DNA from: a virus
IMG/VR virus record: IMGVR_UViG_3300020578_000406
Coordinates: 1 to 24,891 of that record
Direction: 5' to 3' (one strand)
DNA: 24,891 nucleotides
Position 1 is the first letter of the stretch. Every line of letters begins with the position of its first letter. Position numbers and translations under genes: made by a program. This document shows, one piece after another, positions 1 through 24,891 of this stretch. The notes beneath the pieces are model-generated. The model was given only the letters and a program-made list of their open reading frames with translations, did not search any database and was not told the origin of the DNA.

Positions 1-573
1 AAGGGCTGGCTGAACCTTGACCACAAGCCCGGCGTGGAAAACGTGCTAGGCTACCCGCTCAGCGTTGAGACGCGCGGGCGCGAGACGCACCTGGAGGGCG
101 TGCTACTGCTCGACCGCCCAAAGGCGCGCGAGGTGTATGACACGGCGCGCAGCCTACAGAAGGCGGGGGGCGGGCGGCGCCTGGGCTTCTCGATTGAGGG
201 CCAGGTGATGGAGCGCGACCCGAAGAACGCAAAGCGCATCATCAAGGCGCGCGTGCTCAACTGCGCTATCACGCACAACCCGATCAACGCCGACACGCAC
301 CTAGAGTTAATGAAATCGCTTATGAGCGTGGGCTACCAGACGCCGAGCGCCGCGCCCAACGGCGAGAGCCTCGCGCCGCTAGTGCCTCAACAGCTCGCTG
401 GACATATCGCCAACGCCGCCAGCCCATCTCAGAAAAAAAATTCAGAGGATGCGGCTTTAGCTGATATGATTAGAGCGCTATATGCAAACTTCCCCGCCGC
501 CCCACTCGCCGAGATCATCAAGGCGGCTCAACAGATGACGGAGGCTAGGCGAATATGCGCCGAGACGACCTAA
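1..573 (+). CDS. Prohead (capsid maturation) serine protease, 5' end outside window
   Basis: The reading frame is open from base 1, so the true start lies upstream and only the C-terminal part is seen. A GTG at 34 is internal and should not be taken as the start. The likely catalytic pair is His in LNLDHKPG (bases 22-24) and Ser in LGFSIEG (bases 190-192), the arrangement of phage prohead proteases, which cleave scaffold and capsid N-termini inside the procapsid. The gene sits just before the scaffold and capsid genes, as expected. The tail after about base 320 is low in conserved residues and holds a VGYQTP...PQQL block (bases 328-396) that reappears in the capsid protein. It overlaps the next gene by 19 bases. 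The family call rests on the two motifs and the context; the third catalytic residue was not identified. Confidence 0.8.
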   Translation, partial: KGWLNLDHKPGVENVLGYPLSVETRGRETHLEGVLLLDRPKAREVYDTARSLQKAGGGRRLGFSIEGQVMERDPKNAKRIIKARVLNCAITHNPINADTHLELMKSLMSVGYQTPSAAPNGESLAPLVPQQLAGHIANAASPSQKKNSEDAALADMIRALYANFPAAPLAEIIKAAQQMTEARRICAETT

Positions 574-1130
574 TCGAGATGATGAAAGCGGCGGGCGTCG
601 CCCCCGCAGAGGCTGAGGCTCGCGCCGACGCCACCCTCGCGGATCACGCCGCCGCGGACACCCTCACCAAGAGCCTCGACGCCCTCGCCGACGTCGCCGC
701 CGCCCAGACGCGCGCGGAGGCGGAGAACGCCGACCGCCTCGCGAAGGCTGCCACCGCCGCCGAAATCAACCTCGCCGAGACGCTCGCGCCCGCCCTTGAC
801 GCCATGCTCGCCGAGCAGCGCACCCAGAACGCGGCGCTGGCTAAGGGGCTCACCGGCGCCCTGGAGCTCATTAAGGGGCTCAAGGCTGATCTAAAGGCCC
901 TCCGCGACGCGCGCCCCGCGCCCGCGCCCGCGCCTATGGCTAAGAGCGTTGATTTCATCCCCGCCCCCGGCGAGGTGAAGGGCGCCGCCGTGGACGCGCG
1001 CGAGGAGCTCATTAAGGCTCTTACCGGCGCCACCACCACCGACGCTAACCGCGCCGCGCAGCTCATGCACGCCGCCGCCCTCCTGGAGAGCGGCGCCGAC
1101 CCCCTCGACATTCAGAAGCGTTTCTTTTAA
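555..1130 (+). CDS. Putative capsid scaffolding protein
   Basis: This 191-residue protein is Ala/Glu/Lys-rich with heptad-like spacing over about residues 25-118, so it is probably a long coiled coil. A Pro-Ala hinge (about residues 119-128) and a small C-terminal helical domain ending DPLDIQKRFF follow. Scaffolds line the procapsid interior and are removed by the protease; the position between protease and capsid gene, and the helical low-complexity composition, fit this role. The start ATG at 555 has GGAGG at 540-544 inside the end of the protease gene, so translation is probably coupled. There is no recognisable enzymatic motif. The call is by context and composition, not by a specific sequence family. 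Confidence 0.7.
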   Translation: MRRDDLIEMMKAAGVAPAEAEARADATLADHAAADTLTKSLDALADVAAAQTRAEAENADRLAKAATAAEINLAETLAPALDAMLAEQRTQNAALAKGLTGALELIKGLKADLKALRDARPAPAPAPMAKSVDFIPAPGEVKGAAVDAREELIKALTGATTTDANRAAQLMHAAALLESGADPLDIQKRFF

Positions 1131-1142
1131 GGAGCCCCGCAC

Positions 1143-2543
1143 ATGATCAGCTCTCAGAACCTCGCCGCGCTCATGGCCGACCTGAACAAGGGCACCGTGG
1201 GCTACCAGACGCCCCTAGTTCCCGCCGGGGGCTCCCAGACCGCCTCTAACCTCTCGCCGCTCATCCCGCAGCAGCTCTCACAGACGCTCAGCGTTGCTAC
1301 CTCCAGCATGGCCGACCTCAAGCTGTGGCCCATGCTCAACAAGGTTGCGGCTATGAACACCGTTGTCGAGTACAACCGCGTGCTCTCGCACGGCGCCGAG
1401 CACTCCCCGTTTATCGCTGAGGGCGGCGTGGGCGCGCTGAACCGCGCCACCTACCAGAAGGTCGCCGTGCAGATTAAGTACCTCGCTGAGCGCCGCGAGA
1501 TCACCGACGTTGCCTCTTTTGTGTCGCTTGTCGGGCCCTCCGCCGACGCCCTCGCGCTTGAGACGACGCGCGGCACCGAGGCGCTGTTGCGCCGCGTGGA
1601 AAAGGAGCTCTTCTTCGGTAACAGCACCGTCAACCCCCTCGCGTGGGATGGGATCATCAAGCAGATCAGCGACGCCGGCAACGTCGCCGACCTCCGCGGC
1701 AAGGCTGTTACGCCTAATTACCTCCAGGAGGTGCTAGGCTCGCTGTACTCCGCGCCCTTCTACGGTATGGCCTCGCACATCCTGGTCACGCCCCGCGTTC
1801 TCAGCGAGATCATCAAGCAGACCGTGACCTTTGGGCGCCACGATCAGATCAATTTCAACAACGGTATGCTAGGGTTCGGCTCGAACAACCTAACGATTAG
1901 CGCCCCCTACGGCATGATCCCCGTTGTTGCGTGCCCGTTCCTTGAGCGCCACGACCGCATCGCCCCCGCCGCGGGCGCGTCGGGCGTGTTTGACGGCTCT
2001 GTGGTCACGCCTACTATCAGCGTGCAGCCCACCGCCGCCACTAACGCCGCCTCTCAGTTTGTGGCAGCCGACGAGGGCGCCTACCGCTACCGCGTTGTGC
2101 CCGTGGGCCCGTCGGGTGTGGGCGTCGCCGTGGACACCAACGCCGTTAGCGTGGAGACGGGCGACCGCGTGAGCTTCACCATCGCGCAGAGCGACGCCTC
2201 CGCGACCGTCTCGCACTACCGCGTTTACCGTTCCGCCGCGGACGCCGCCAGCGCCGACGGCGCGCTCCTGGTGCGCGAGATCGCCAACGGCGGCGCCACC
2301 ACGGTCTTTACGGACGACAACGCCGACCTCCCCGGCTCCTCGCCTATCCTGCTGATCAACAGCGGCGCCGATCATATGGCCTACTACCAGATGCTCAGCC
2401 TGATCCGCCGCCCGCTCGCGCAGATCAATAGCAGCTACCCGTTCCTGCTGATGATGTTTGGCGCCCCCGCCGTGATGCTCCCCTCGAAGATGTGGATCAT
2501 CAAGAACGCCGGCGTGAACCCCGCGCAGGGCCTCCCCGCCTGA
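1143..2543 (+). CDS. Major capsid protein, HK97 fold, with Ig/FN3-like insertion
   Basis: This 466-residue protein forms the icosahedral shell. The first 45 residues look like a flexible N-terminal arm. The core follows: LKLWPMLNKV, then AEGG (92-95), YLAERREITDVASF (about 113-126), a long helix with GTEALLRRVEKELFFGN (144-160), WDGIIKQI, and a LRGKAVTPNYL stretch, which is the pattern of HK97-fold capsids. Residues about 290-398 are a beta-rich insert with YRYRVVPVGPSG, VSHYRVYRS and TTVFTDDN, resembling a fibronectin III/Ig-like domain. The fold then resumes with DHMAYYQMLSL. AAGGAG at 1129-1134 serves ATG 1143. None of its 24 Ile codons is ATA, unlike neighbouring low-copy genes, consistent with very high expression. 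Confidence 0.9.
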   Translation: MISSQNLAALMADLNKGTVGYQTPLVPAGGSQTASNLSPLIPQQLSQTLSVATSSMADLKLWPMLNKVAAMNTVVEYNRVLSHGAEHSPFIAEGGVGALNRATYQKVAVQIKYLAERREITDVASFVSLVGPSADALALETTRGTEALLRRVEKELFFGNSTVNPLAWDGIIKQISDAGNVADLRGKAVTPNYLQEVLGSLYSAPFYGMASHILVTPRVLSEIIKQTVTFGRHDQINFNNGMLGFGSNNLTISAPYGMIPVVACPFLERHDRIAPAAGASGVFDGSVVTPTISVQPTAATNAASQFVAADEGAYRYRVVPVGPSGVGVAVDTNAVSVETGDRVSFTIAQSDASATVSHYRVYRSAADAASADGALLVREIANGGATTVFTDDNADLPGSSPILLINSGADHMAYYQMLSLIRRPLAQINSSYPFLLMMFGAPAVMLPSKMWIIKNAGVNPAQGLPA

Positions 2544-15369: not shown

Positions 15370-16899
15370 ATGGACAAGGTACGTTTAGAGCCCCTAGAGC
15401 GCGCCGAGCTCATCGACACGCTAGCATTGCAAGGCCTCACCTATGAGCACATCCGCCGCGCGCTGGGCGCCGAGTTGGGGGGGAGCGCCACGGCGACCGC
15501 GCGCGGGCGCGGCGGACTGCTCAGCTTGCCCAGCGGTAACTACAACCACGCGCTAGGCACCCTCACCTTGAGCACATTTAGCTATTTGGAGCTCACGCAG
15601 GGCGGCGCGGCGCTGAGCGGGGGGCAGACCGCCGCCCCCGAGGCGCGCATTGTGCGCTTTAACAGCGCCGACAGCGACCACCCTAACCACCCCATAGACA
15701 TTAGCGCCCAACGCACGCCAGGCACCTCCTATACGCTGTGGGCGCGCTTTGTGCGGATCACCACCGACCTAGACGCGCGGCGCAAGTGGAGCGTGACGCT
15801 AAACGCTGAGGTGAGCGCCACTATCGCCACCCGCGAGCGCGAGCGCGTTGAGTTCACCGTGACCACCGGCGCGACACCCGCCGACAGCGGAGAGAGCGTA
15901 TGGGTAGCGCTACTCACCTACAGCGTCACCGTAGGGGGCGCTTTTGTTAGGGGCAGCTTCTACCACGCACACAGCGCCGCCGACGCATTTATCGCGGAGC
16001 AAGAGTTTCTCGACGGAGAGGCGCGGCTAGGCCTCGACGCGAGCTTGATCACCCTGCTCACGGCGGGCGGGCGCTCGCTGGGGATCATAGAGCACCTCGC
16101 GCTACTGCGCGCCCAGCTCTACCGGCTACTGCACAAGGGGAGCGGAGATAGCGTGACGCCGGCGGGAAGCGCAACGTGGCGAGGCACCCCGCGCTTTAGC
16201 CTGGCGGGGGTGGCGCAGGAGATAGACGACCTCGACGGGCGCATTAGCGATCTAGCCACCCGCGCGACGGCGCTTGAGATCGACACGCGCGGCGCGCGTG
16301 ACGAATACAGCCTGATCATTCATGCGCGTATGATCTTCGACATCAACGACACGACGGCAACGCTTGAGACGGTCTACCAGAGCGGCTATCCGGGCTTTGT
16401 GCCTGGCGTGAGCGTGTTTCTCAAGTTTGACCGCACATATAACGCCGGCTCAGGCGTATTTAACGGCGCCGCGTTCTCGAACATCGCCGAGGCTATCGAC
16501 ACATTTTCGCGCCCCGTTATCTGTTTCTCGACCACCATCAGCCCCCTACCGCTCAACGCGGCGCTGATAGTGGGTGAGAGCGTGCGCGCCATAGGGCACG
16601 ACGAGCCGCGCGACGGCCTCGAAGCGCCCGACGTGCGAAAGACGCTTGTGCTATCCGCTAAACGCCTGGTGCGGAACGCATTTATCGCGGAGCCGCTCGC
16701 CGACAATATCAGCCGCTATACGCGCGTGCGCGAGTACACTTTCAAAGAGACATACGGCGGCGCCGATGTAGCGGAGAACGCCATAGCTTACGCGCTACGC
16801 TTTGGCGAGAACGGCGACGGCTACTACACCAACGCCGACGACAAGATCATTCTACACGTTGCTTTCCAGCTGCGCCTAGCCACCCGTGAGGCCATCTAA
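15370..16899 (+). CDS. Baseplate/fibre-associated structural protein, function not recognised
   Basis: This 509-residue protein has its ATG immediately after the J-like stop, with GAGGAG just upstream. An N-terminal helical segment (EPLERAELIDTLALQGLTYEH) is followed by beta-rich regions, a central part with SFYHAHSAADAFIAEQEFLDG and a helical SLGIIEHLALLRAQLYRLLH. The C-terminal domain contains VFLKFDRTYNAGSGVF and ends with GYYTNADDKIILHVAFQL. No named domain is recognised. The place between the wedge gene and the collagen-like fibre suggests a component that attaches fibres to the baseplate. Confidence 0.5.
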   Translation: MDKVRLEPLERAELIDTLALQGLTYEHIRRALGAELGGSATATARGRGGLLSLPSGNYNHALGTLTLSTFSYLELTQGGAALSGGQTAAPEARIVRFNSADSDHPNHPIDISAQRTPGTSYTLWARFVRITTDLDARRKWSVTLNAEVSATIATRERERVEFTVTTGATPADSGESVWVALLTYSVTVGGAFVRGSFYHAHSAADAFIAEQEFLDGEARLGLDASLITLLTAGGRSLGIIEHLALLRAQLYRLLHKGSGDSVTPAGSATWRGTPRFSLAGVAQEIDDLDGRISDLATRATALEIDTRGARDEYSLIIHARMIFDINDTTATLETVYQSGYPGFVPGVSVFLKFDRTYNAGSGVFNGAAFSNIAEAIDTFSRPVICFSTTISPLPLNAALIVGESVRAIGHDEPRDGLEAPDVRKTLVLSAKRLVRNAFIAEPLADNISRYTRVREYTFKETYGGADVAENAIAYALRFGENGDGYYTNADDKIILHVAFQLRLATREAI

Positions 16900-17954
16900 T
16901 GATCACAGCTTACGCCAGCTTTAACCCCTCGCCGATCACCGCCACGCCGCGCGACCGCACCGAGAGCACAAGCGCCCTCCCCCTGAGCGGCCTACAGCTC
17001 TACGGGGGCGCCGTGGACAGCGCCAACCCCAGCGCCACTTTTAGCTTCGCGTGGAGCGTCTTAACGCTACGCGCGGGGCAGACTGCGACCATCGCCACCC
17101 CCACCACTCAAAACACGCTCCTAAACGGCGTTAATGATGTGTGGGGTGATGTGCGGGTGCTTCTCATCGCGACCAACACGGCGACGGGCGAGACGAGCGA
17201 GGCAGACCCCCGCTTAGCGCCCGCTACGGCGATCACGACACTTCACCTAGAGAGCGTGGCCCGCGAGCTCACGCGCCCCGCGATAGGCTCGCGCGAGTGG
17301 TGGTATGCGCTAGACACCATCACCGCAACCCTCGACACCCTCGACACCAGCGGCACCACGATAGACAGCGCGAGCATCAACGAGGCGGGCGAGCTGCTCT
17401 TAGACCTGAGCGACGGAACCACCATCAACGCGGGGGTGGCGAGGGGGCCCGCAGGTGCAACGGGCGCAACGGGCGCGACGGGCCCCGCAGGCGCCGCAGG
17501 TGCAACGGGCGCGACAGGCGCGACGGGCGCAACGGGCCCCGGCGCCTACTCACAAACGATCTGGCACACCTACGACGGCGGCACGGTAAGCGCGGGGGTG
17601 AACCCTAATAAACTCCTTTGGGCCGTGGGCCCGTACCGCGCCCACATCGCCCTCGCCGTGACCCGCCTAAGCGCTAGCGCGCTCGACGGGGGCGTCGCCA
17701 CAAACAACCTACCCGTTCACGGGGTGCTCATCACCGCTGACACGTTCAAATCAGGCGCCGCCAACGCGGGCGCCGCAACGATTTTCGCCACACTCAACCT
17801 CACGCAAGGCGCCACGTCGCACAACAGCACCACAGCCACAACGACTACCAGCGCGATCATCCCCCAGGGGCATCTCTTCGGCGTGCTCATCGGCGCGACG
17901 AGCATAGGCGCGCTAAACGGCGTGACCCTAGAGCTCAACTGCGAGGCGCTGTAA
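16899..17954 (+). CDS. Collagen-like tail fibre protein
   Basis: This 351-residue protein has a TAATG junction with the previous gene. Residues about 35-105 form an Ig/PKD-like beta section (FSFAWSVLTLRAGQTATIATPT, VWGDVRVLLIATN). Residues 150-180 hold a turn-and-strand motif with LLLDLSDGTTINAG leading into eleven G-X-Y triplets (residues 183-215: GPAGATGAT type, bases 17445-17543). The C-terminal part is a beta-rich domain ending VTLELNCEAL. Collagen-like repeats in tail fibres make a trimeric rod that carries the receptor-binding head. It probably binds the host surface; the receptor is unknown. Confidence 0.7.
   Translation: MITAYASFNPSPITATPRDRTESTSALPLSGLQLYGGAVDSANPSATFSFAWSVLTLRAGQTATIATPTTQNTLLNGVNDVWGDVRVLLIATNTATGETSEADPRLAPATAITTLHLESVARELTRPAIGSREWWYALDTITATLDTLDTSGTTIDSASINEAGELLLDLSDGTTINAGVARGPAGATGATGATGPAGAAGATGATGATGATGPGAYSQTIWHTYDGGTVSAGVNPNKLLWAVGPYRAHIALAVTRLSASALDGGVATNNLPVHGVLITADTFKSGAANAGAATIFATLNLTQGATSHNSTTATTTTSAIIPQGHLFGVLIGATSIGALNGVTLELNCEAL
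17445..17543 (+). repeat. Collagen-like G-X-Y triplet repeat in fibre gene
   Basis: Eleven Gly-X-Y triplets are encoded by repeats of the 9-base unit GGCGCAACG and near variants. The repeat lies between the Ig-like part and the C-terminal head of the fibre protein. Confidence 0.9.
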
Positions 17955-23313: not shown

Positions 23314-24891
23314 TTAGCCGCGCACGACTAAATCAGCGAGGGGGGTGAGCGCGTAGGAAGCGTGGCGCCAGAGCATCGAGGAGCTATCAACGCGCACGAT
23401 GGACGCGCCGCCAAACACCGACCAACCGCGCTCAGCGATGACAAGCCCCAGGAGCGCCCAGCCCTTAGCGTAGTCCATCCCGGGCAGGTAGCACCCGTGC
23501 GCGCGGGAGAGCTCAGCGATGAGCGGGGCGATGAGCGCCTCCGCCTCCGCCGCGCCCGAGGCGTGGCAGTCAATCAGCAGGAGCCGCGCGCCCACGCTCA
23601 CCGACGCGGGGGGCGTAAGCGCCACAGGCGCCACGGGCGCCGCCACAGGCGCGGGAGCCTGAGCGGGCGCCGGAACGGGCGCGGGAGGCGCCAGAGGCGC
23701 GGGCGCGGGAGCCACAGCAACAGGCGCGGGAGGAGGCGCGGGAGCCACCACGACAGGCGCGGGAGGAGGCGCGGGGGCCACCGCGACAGGCGCAGGAGGG
23801 GGCACGGGAGGGGGCGCCCCCCACCCCGCGAGCAGGTCATCAAAGCTGAAACTATCCACATCAGACGGCGCGGGGGGAGGGGGCGCGTCGGAGGGCAGGA
23901 TAACACCCCCCGCCAAATCCGCGAGGAGCTGTAGCCGCTCTTTATTCGCCGCCAGCGTCTCGCCCGAGGGCTCGCGCGCCTGGTAGGCGGCGAGGAGGGC
24001 GGGTGACAGCGCCGCGACGCGCTCAGTCACCGCGGCGCGCGCCTCACCCGCGTTCAGCGCGCTGAGGCTCTTACCCCCGTAGGTGACGCGAGCGCGCTTA
24101 GGCGCGGGGCCCTCGACCTCCGCGCCGTCGGGCAGCCCGTCAGGCGGATTGAGCTGATAGTAGGCCTCGCCGTCCACCTCGAAGGGCGAGCGCCCCAAGC
24201 GCTCAAGCGCCACATCATCATCATCCACCCACGGCGAGACGACAGGGGGCGCGCCCGTCGAGGGCGCCGACGGGGCGGCGGGGCGCGCCTGGACAACCGG
24301 CGCGAGGGGGGCAGGGGTGGCGGGCGCGGCGGCGCCTTTGCGCGCGGCGAGCGCCGCCAAGAAGCTAGACGGATCAGAGCTGGAGCTAGACATAAAGCCT
24401 TGAACCTCAAGAACGACCGCCGCGGCGCGGCAGTCGGTGAAAAAGGGGCAACCGCCGAAGCGATCACAAGCGGAATAGTTAGGCGCGACGTCGCCCCAGG
24501 AGGGCGCCGCCGCTTGGACAGACTGAGCGCGCGCCACCTCGCCGAGCGCCTCGACGCCCTCGACAAGATCAGCGGCGCCCCAGGTAACAGAGGACACGGC
24601 CACACGGTAAGGGGCGGCGGTTTCGCCGTACACGAGGCGGAAGGTGAGGGGCTCACCGAGCGGGCCGAGGTCGCCCAGCGCGCCCACAAGCGCGGCGTGC
24701 GAGTAGAGGAGCGCTTGAGGATCAGCGCGTAGTTCATACTCGCCCTTTTGCGAGCTGAGCGACCCGACGGTCTTGTGATCCGTTATGCGCGCATAGCCGC
24801 CCCCCACCGCGAGCTCTACGAGGTCAACACGCCCGCGCACAGGCACGGGCCACCCCGCCGGCGTGAACGCGAAATCAATTTCTATCTGAGC
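23314..24891 (-). CDS. PD-(D/E)XK nuclease (Cas4/AddB-like), multidomain, 5' end outside window
   Basis: The frame is open to the window edge (A-Q-I-E-I-D-F... at the first bases), so the N-terminus is missing; the GTG at 24846 is internal. GRVDLVEL and ARITDHKT supply the acidic and D-x-K residues of the RecB-type nuclease core, followed by a Q-x-x-L-Y. Later ACDRFGGCPFFTDC has three Cys that could hold an iron-sulfur cluster with a fourth Cys upstream. A Pro/Ala linker (bases about 23620-23820) with an 11-residue tandem repeat joins the nuclease part to a C-terminal region of about 95 residues (GARLLLIDCHASG ... GMDYAKGWALLGLVIAERGW) that I do not recognise. It probably acts in recombination or end processing with the polymerase. 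Confidence 0.75.
   Translation of the reverse strand, partial: AQIEIDFAFTPAGWPVPVRGRVDLVELAVGGGYARITDHKTVGSLSSQKGEYELRADPQALLYSHAALVGALGDLGPLGEPLTFRLVYGETAAPYRVAVSSVTWGAADLVEGVEALGEVARAQSVQAAAPSWGDVAPNYSACDRFGGCPFFTDCRAAAVVLEVQGFMSSSSSDPSSFLAALAARKGAAAPATPAPLAPVVQARPAAPSAPSTGAPPVVSPWVDDDDVALERLGRSPFEVDGEAYYQLNPPDGLPDGAEVEGPAPKRARVTYGGKSLSALNAGEARAAVTERVAALSPALLAAYQAREPSGETLAANKERLQLLADLAGGVILPSDAPPPPAPSDVDSFSFDDLLAGWGAPPPVPPPAPVAVAPAPPPAPVVVAPAPPPAPVAVAPAPAPLAPPAPVPAPAQAPAPVAAPVAPVALTPPASVSVGARLLLIDCHASGAAEAEALIAPLIAELSRAHGCYLPGMDYAKGWALLGLVIAERGWSVFGGASIVRVDSSSMLWRHASYALTPLADLVVRG
23705..23803 (-). repeat. Three tandem 33-bp repeats in nuclease linker
   Basis: Three copies with a 33-base period (starting at 23705, 23738 and 23771 on the + strand) encode PPPAPVxVAPA in the nuclease. 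The copies differ at a few bases, mostly in a valine/alanine codon pair. Confidence 0.85.

Follow-up and report, generated by a model that had tools for sequence, protein, structure and literature searches.

A capsid-arm-like segment in the tail of a phage prohead protease and its possible role in procapsid entry

Why should the tail of a head maturation protease resemble the N-terminus of the capsid protein of the same phage? The question arises at one end of a viral contig of 24,891 nucleotides (the window, that is, the whole stretch of DNA analysed), and it touches on a wider one: how prohead proteases enter procapsids in the right number and become activated inside them is poorly resolved. 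The original prediction had read the resemblance as a docking or packing signal, as a common cleavage signal, or as the trace of a partial duplication or recombination.

The head genes and the shared block

The features needed for the argument are listed below, all on the plus strand; a hyphen in a motif marks a cut.

1..573, +: prohead (head maturation) serine protease of the S78/assemblin type; the 5' end lies off the window edge, and the gene is complete in locus L002
22-24 (His) and 190-192 (Ser, in LGFSIEG), +: protease catalytic residues, placed by alignment
313..318, +: candidate autocleavage junction Lys105-Ser106 (LELMK-SLMSVGYQTP) at the end of the catalytic domain; K157/S158, invariant or near-invariant, in the protease alignment A5
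316..423, +: the block, a stretch of the protease tail that resembles the capsid N-arm at 1194-1304, with its core at 328-396 and disorder predicted; local alignment to the capsid N-terminus, z 8.2
433..567, +: C-terminal helical hairpin of the protease, 3' of the block, from helices in the AF2 model
555..1130, +: scaffold-like protein rich in K-(A/S/G) sites and without the block, placed between protease and major capsid protein as SPO1 gp3.3 is
1143..2543, +: major capsid protein (MCP), HK97-type, Herelleviridae-like (phrog_752, E 3e-62)
1143..1190, +: residues 1-16 of the MCP, a predicted propeptide with ADLNK at its end, by alignment to the propeptides of A511 and 812
1191..1304, +: mature N-arm of the MCP with the common block (core 1197-1277), placed by the junction and block comparisons

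What the window retains at 1-573 is the C-terminal portion of the protease, which matches phrog_1028 (head maturation protease, E 6.7e-28); H60, S116 and E118 are conserved in alignment A5. The Pfam S78 score of this protein is 18.4, just below the cut-off of 21, which is passed by its phage K and SPO1 relatives, and a Foldseek comparison places its AF2 fold near the herpesvirus assemblins (E 1.1e-4) and T4 gp21 (E 0.012). It is a prohead protease of the S78/assemblin type. The solved capsids nearest to the window MCP are 9vel (SPO1 gp6.1) and 9row and 5lii (phage 812).

The window carries a Herelleviridae-like head module, with homologous MCP, protease and scaffold in the same order. In Herelleviridae (SPO1 gp3.2/gp3.3/gp6.1; K/812; A511 Cps) the order is portal, protease, scaffold, MCP, and the block and the junction of K with S, A or G are present there as well. 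Unlike these phages, the window clade has a block sequence of its own (GYQTP...PLVPQQL), and its relatives' contigs are about 40 kb against Herelleviridae genomes of about 130-165 kb; the closest relatives, all IMG/VR contigs, reach at most 44 kb. The comparison bearing on family-level placement covers the head genes alone, in which the closest sequences are unclassified IMG/VR contigs and the MCP is about 26% identical to that of the named Herelleviridae phages SPO1, K and A511.

Open reading frames resembling tail sheath, tape measure, baseplate and DNA polymerase genes, labels which come from reading their translations, indicate that the window is most likely a contig of a contractile-tailed phage. 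Positions 1-24891 make up the whole of contig C3 in a bacterial bin of 1028 contigs, 88% complete; because host genes are absent at its flanks, the contig is probably misbinned or from an infecting virus and not a prophage. Elsewhere in the window, collagen-like GAT/GPAG repeats lie at 17430-17530 in a tail-region frame (16899-17954), and tandem-like repeats of 33 bases at 23720-23780 encode PAPPPAPV repeats in a nuclease-like protein on the minus strand (23314-24891).

The block itself is real, reading VGYQTPSAAPNGESLAPLVPQQL at 328-396 of the protease gene and VGYQTPLVPAGGSQTASNLSPLIPQQL at capsid residues 19-45 (1197-1277). The run of identical bases, first given as 17, is confirmed as identical and measures 18 (327-344 and 1196-1213). 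This DNA identity alone is weak evidence and nonsignificant, because dinucleotide shuffles lead one to expect 0.48 17-mer repeats per window and several further repeat families of at least 17 bases occur within it. At the protein level the window pair scores 69, against a mean of 33.6 (sd 4.8, maximum 61) for 1000 shuffles of the protease. A few other Ala-rich pairs of reading frames in the window reach 70-91 through composition, so that the window by itself is insufficient to settle the matter, and its pair turned out to be among the weaker own-pairs of the set described below.

Pairing of the two segments among relatives

Loci with both a protease and an MCP gene were collected from IMG/VR scans and named phages (167 in all), and the last 130 residues of each protease were aligned with the 110 N-terminal residues of the capsid protein. 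Removal of near-duplicates left 114 distinct protease/capsid pairs. Their mean own-pair score was 86.8, with 101 of the 114 above 50 and 104 above 40, whereas shuffled tails gave a mean of 27.3 and a 99th percentile of 42. Comparison of relatives for both blocks, which had been proposed as a check, makes the match certain, and chance as its origin is ruled out by the 114 pairs. In the window's phage and about 100 distinct relatives the segment in the protease tail is some 30-40 residues long. The pairs span the window clade, Herelleviridae (including SPO1, K and A511), a Thermus phage, and Pseudomonas and Bordetella phages. In Brochothrix phage A9, for example, the protease reads KSMTTGYEHGGTDQTDGSALRRQSLATKITDLTYG and the capsid KSMTTGYNHGGTDQFNGQALRRQSLANDLKNLTYG, and in Thermus phage Cumys the two read AVLTAGDPHALDPKSGLTGVPAIRRESLEG and AVQTAGDPHALDFKAGLSGVPAIRLESLEA.

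Searches of the whole records of 11 relatives (6 named Herelleviridae and 5 window-clade contigs) returned two matches each, at the capsid and protease genes, and none elsewhere, which rules out the block as a general targeting tag on other head proteins. Nor does it occur in the scaffold frame between the protease and MCP genes, or in the scaffolds of the relatives.

The two segments also vary together. To keep the match itself from shaping the blocks, these were delimited in the alignment of each family separately; own protease-capsid comparisons then scored 75.3, against 35.7 for distant capsid-capsid, 30.3 for protease-protease and 29.7 for protease-capsid comparisons. Set against the capsids of other phages, protease blocks score about 86 at capsid identities of at least 60%, about 72 at 40-59% and about 33, near the null, below 40%. 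A single duplication followed by drift should leave a protease block that fits any phage's capsid equally, and it does not. In a tree of 94 blocks, a quick tree from a short alignment of 42 columns, protease and capsid blocks cluster by phage lineage, and a topology that unites every protease block in one clade is rejected (AU p 0.0034, delta lnL 104). The own-versus-other scores and the tree together rule out one ancient duplication with independent drift.

A recent partial duplication or recombination, one of the origins first proposed, is not borne out either: the pairing extends across many phage families, and identical residues use the same codon at 1091 of 2278 positions, where 1027 are expected from codon usage. 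Codon identity so near expectation tells against recent duplication or gene conversion, and for the same reason the match is maintained mainly at the amino acid level and not via recent copying of DNA. The block could also be a functionless leftover: a relic of a protease-capsid fusion, or the product of several rounds of partial duplication or gene conversion that carried the 5' end of the capsid gene into that of the protease. Recurrent copying of this kind could produce lineage-wise pairing, and the 18 identical bases in the window agree with it. The codon usage gives no signal of recent copying, however, and with long retention over many families and a similarity bounded at the cut site, we consider such a leftover very improbable.

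The pairing has limits. HK97 has no block common to the gp4 tail and gp5 (p 0.9), T4 gp21/gp23 gives p 0.058, and the block is absent from a Leptospira record. HK97 gp5, whose maturation junction we take to be Lys-Ser, does have FNK-SLG in sequence at the junction; it differs from the window family in lacking the common block and in having its scaffold fused to gp5. The Bacteroides phages DAC19 (L015) and SJC03 (L182) keep the capsid N-arm while their protease tail is replaced by unrelated sequence. Loss of one block with retention of the other had been named as an observation that would speak against a shared signal, and it exists in part in these two phages, which form a natural test case for block function. 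In one IMG/VR clade (L062, L073, L077, L080, L088, L090 and L091) the protease block is weak or degenerate, GxGxGxxLxxxxLE against GxGFxLRxESLE in the capsid, and some of its proteases have a long insert before the block (about 140 residues in L090). Because of the exceptions in HK97, T4, DAC19/SJC03 and Leptospira, the block is a feature of one large head family and not of prohead proteases generally.

A common cut site and the imitation of the mature capsid arm

The annotated mature capsid protein of A511 starts after ...EDALK23, and in the phage 812 structures 9row, 9rox and 9roz the capsid chain starts at S25, after ...EDVVK24. The start of the block coincides with this capsid junction of K with S, A or G. 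The near-invariant K-S of the proteases lies where the catalytic domain ends, and in 68 of the 83 pairs tested both proteins have K followed by S, A, G or T ahead of the block. A lysine cut site common to protease tail and capsid is well supported by these sequence comparisons. By homology, the capsid protein of the window's phage would be cleaved at its K junction, and Lys105-Ser106 is a candidate self-cleavage site of the protease.

Over the 35 residues downstream of the junction, own pairs score 83.7 against 40.2 for permuted pairs (maximum 48.3), while the 15 residues upstream show no own-specific similarity (11.2 versus 10.6 permuted). Because all own-specific similarity lies downstream, the protease tail is, as judged from sequence, an imitation of the mature capsid N-arm, the portion that stays in the shell, and not of the propeptide; the block as a propeptide is ruled out by the unlike upstream side.

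The scaffold helps to separate a cleavage signal from something more. Of the 11 lysines in the window scaffold, 10 have A, S or G as the next residue, as do 26 of 64 lysines in the remaining virion reading frames (Fisher p 0.0025), and repeated (V/L/I)xK(S/A) sites occur in the SPO1, K, A511 and other scaffolds. These K sites are probably cut by the same protease, and the scaffold probably chopped up. Such sites without the block imply that the block is more than a cleavage motif. Of the common cleavage signal first proposed, the shared cut site stands, and cleavage alone is too narrow an account. That likeness exists just because one protease cuts both proteins, with nothing past the cut site of importance, would agree with the shared junction and with the mapped capsid junction in A511 and phage 812, but the similarity runs some 30-35 residues past the cut and the scaffold sites have no block, making this account improbable.

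In two loci, protease and scaffold lie in one uninterrupted frame (L024, 2714-3976; L156, 2432-3886), explicable either by fusion of the two proteins or by a start of the scaffold nested within the frame, on the pattern of lambda C/Nu3; L024 keeps the block mid-frame, SLVSYQTPSEAQGIGALVPQQL. In the window, unlike these two, protease and scaffold overlap in different frames (555-573).

AF2 models the catalytic domain of the protease with confidence, and likewise a helical hairpin at the C-terminus (helices 197-215 and 221-241, pLDDT 82-95); between them the block comes out as a disordered stretch, with pLDDT below 50 at residues 159-169 and 178-197 (L002 numbering). A flexible segment between two folded parts, as predicted here, is what would be expected of a docking or substrate segment. 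The corresponding model of the MCP is poor over residues 8-134 and was not counted as evidence. A profile search of the hairpin against the HK97 gp4 C-terminus gave no match, and its treatment as a clear homologue was dropped.

How the segment may act

We give a probability of about one half to the reading that the block is a self-cleaved, capsid-mimicking docking segment, in which we infer the partner, the docking function and the autocleavage in the window's phage. The protease would be laid out as a catalytic domain, a K-S autocleavage junction, a flexible mimic of the N-arm and a helical hairpin. During assembly the segment would bind the surface that receives the capsid N-arm, on the capsid lattice or the scaffold, and so deliver the protease to its proper site inside the procapsid and in the right number. 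Once the shell is complete, the protease would cut the junctions of K with S, A or G in the scaffold, at the capsid N-terminus and in its own tail, the last of these cuts freeing the catalytic domain. The two segments would change together because both must fit one partner surface.

Of the roles first proposed, a docking or packing signal would best fit the data and the work on SPN3US. In that phage an active truncated protease without the full C-terminal propeptide is missing from proheads (PMC7411985). The SPN3US protease removes its own C-terminus, and phiKZ likewise (PMC5694885). N-arm helices adjoin scaffold contacts in procapsids of 80alpha, P22 and phi29, and in D3 Prohead 1 the flexibility of the capsid N-arm may expose the cut site (PMC12749128). 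Against the docking reading count the HK97 and T4 results, by which docking in other phages needs no such mimic, and DAC19/SJC03, with an N-arm and no protease block; the helical hairpin could instead be the true packaging signal.

The main rival places the partner within the enzyme. An exosite on the catalytic domain would read the N-arm downstream of the cut, and the tail would fill this exosite and hold the enzyme inactive until the K-S self-cut in the prohead. In protease and capsid alike the block begins at the cut and lies on the primed side only, co-variation with the enzyme would be required here too, and the self-cut C-termini of the SPN3US and phiKZ proteases (PMC5694885) agree with it. 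The scaffold sites, however, are presumably cut without any block, AF2 leaves the block disordered and not docked in the active site (a weak test, the model being built from 28 sequences), and the activity of truncated SPN3US protease in vitro implies that the tail there is not simply an inhibitor or activator (PMC7411985). Both docking and exosite predict co-variation and they differ in the binding partner; we regard the exosite as unlikely. Least probable of all, with a very slim chance, is that the C-terminal fragment, once self-cleaved, remains lodged at an N-arm site in the mature shell as a pseudo-capsid element of the virion. Remus and 521B proteases have been detected in virions by mass spectrometry, but the available part of that report does not assign the detection to a part of the protease (PMC6563214).

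The docking reading has partial parallels in known systems. The SPN3US gp245 and phiKZ proteases also have a C-terminal propeptide that is self-removed and has been proposed as a prohead-packing signal (PMC5694885, PMC7411985), and by analogy the window protease may remove its own; the cut there is after Glu (AXE), and capsid mimicry is not described for those proteases in the available parts of these papers. Herpesvirus UL26/UL26.5 has the related protease fold and a protease that has a segment in common with another assembly protein and cuts itself at R and M sites (PMC12474303). The shared part there is the scaffold, encoded by overlapping genes, whereas in the window family it is the capsid N-arm, in separate, co-varying genes; the block is common to the MCP and not to the scaffold, as a shared scaffold tail of the herpesvirus type would be. 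The T4 capsid-targeting sequence (CTS) is likewise a short segment that directs internal proteins to the prohead, where the maturation protease cuts it (PMC5694885). The CTS is an N-terminal propeptide, upstream of the cut, where protease and capsid are unlike here, and the block is a C-terminal segment whose likeness is to the mature arm of the capsid protein, on the downstream side.

We found no published mention of the protease/capsid pairing in the open-access literature; subscription papers on A511, SPO1 and Twort-like phages lay outside this scope, so that earlier notice is possible. The conserved capsid-like tail makes the question of protease entry and activation testable in SPO1, A511 and K/812 and offers a ready sequence handle. 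With it the capsid cleavage junction of many phages could be predicted from their sequences, and the block may be a natural tag by which proteins could be loaded into capsids of this kind. More tentatively, at slightly under even odds, we propose that in Herelleviridae, and in phages with this head module that infect unrelated hosts, the maturation protease may enter the procapsid as a mimic of a capsid subunit, its tail occupying N-arm sites in the shell or scaffold, and release itself at the capsid cut site. If true, this would be a recruitment route by capsid mimicry, distinct from the shared-scaffold, delta-domain and N-terminal targeting-sequence routes.
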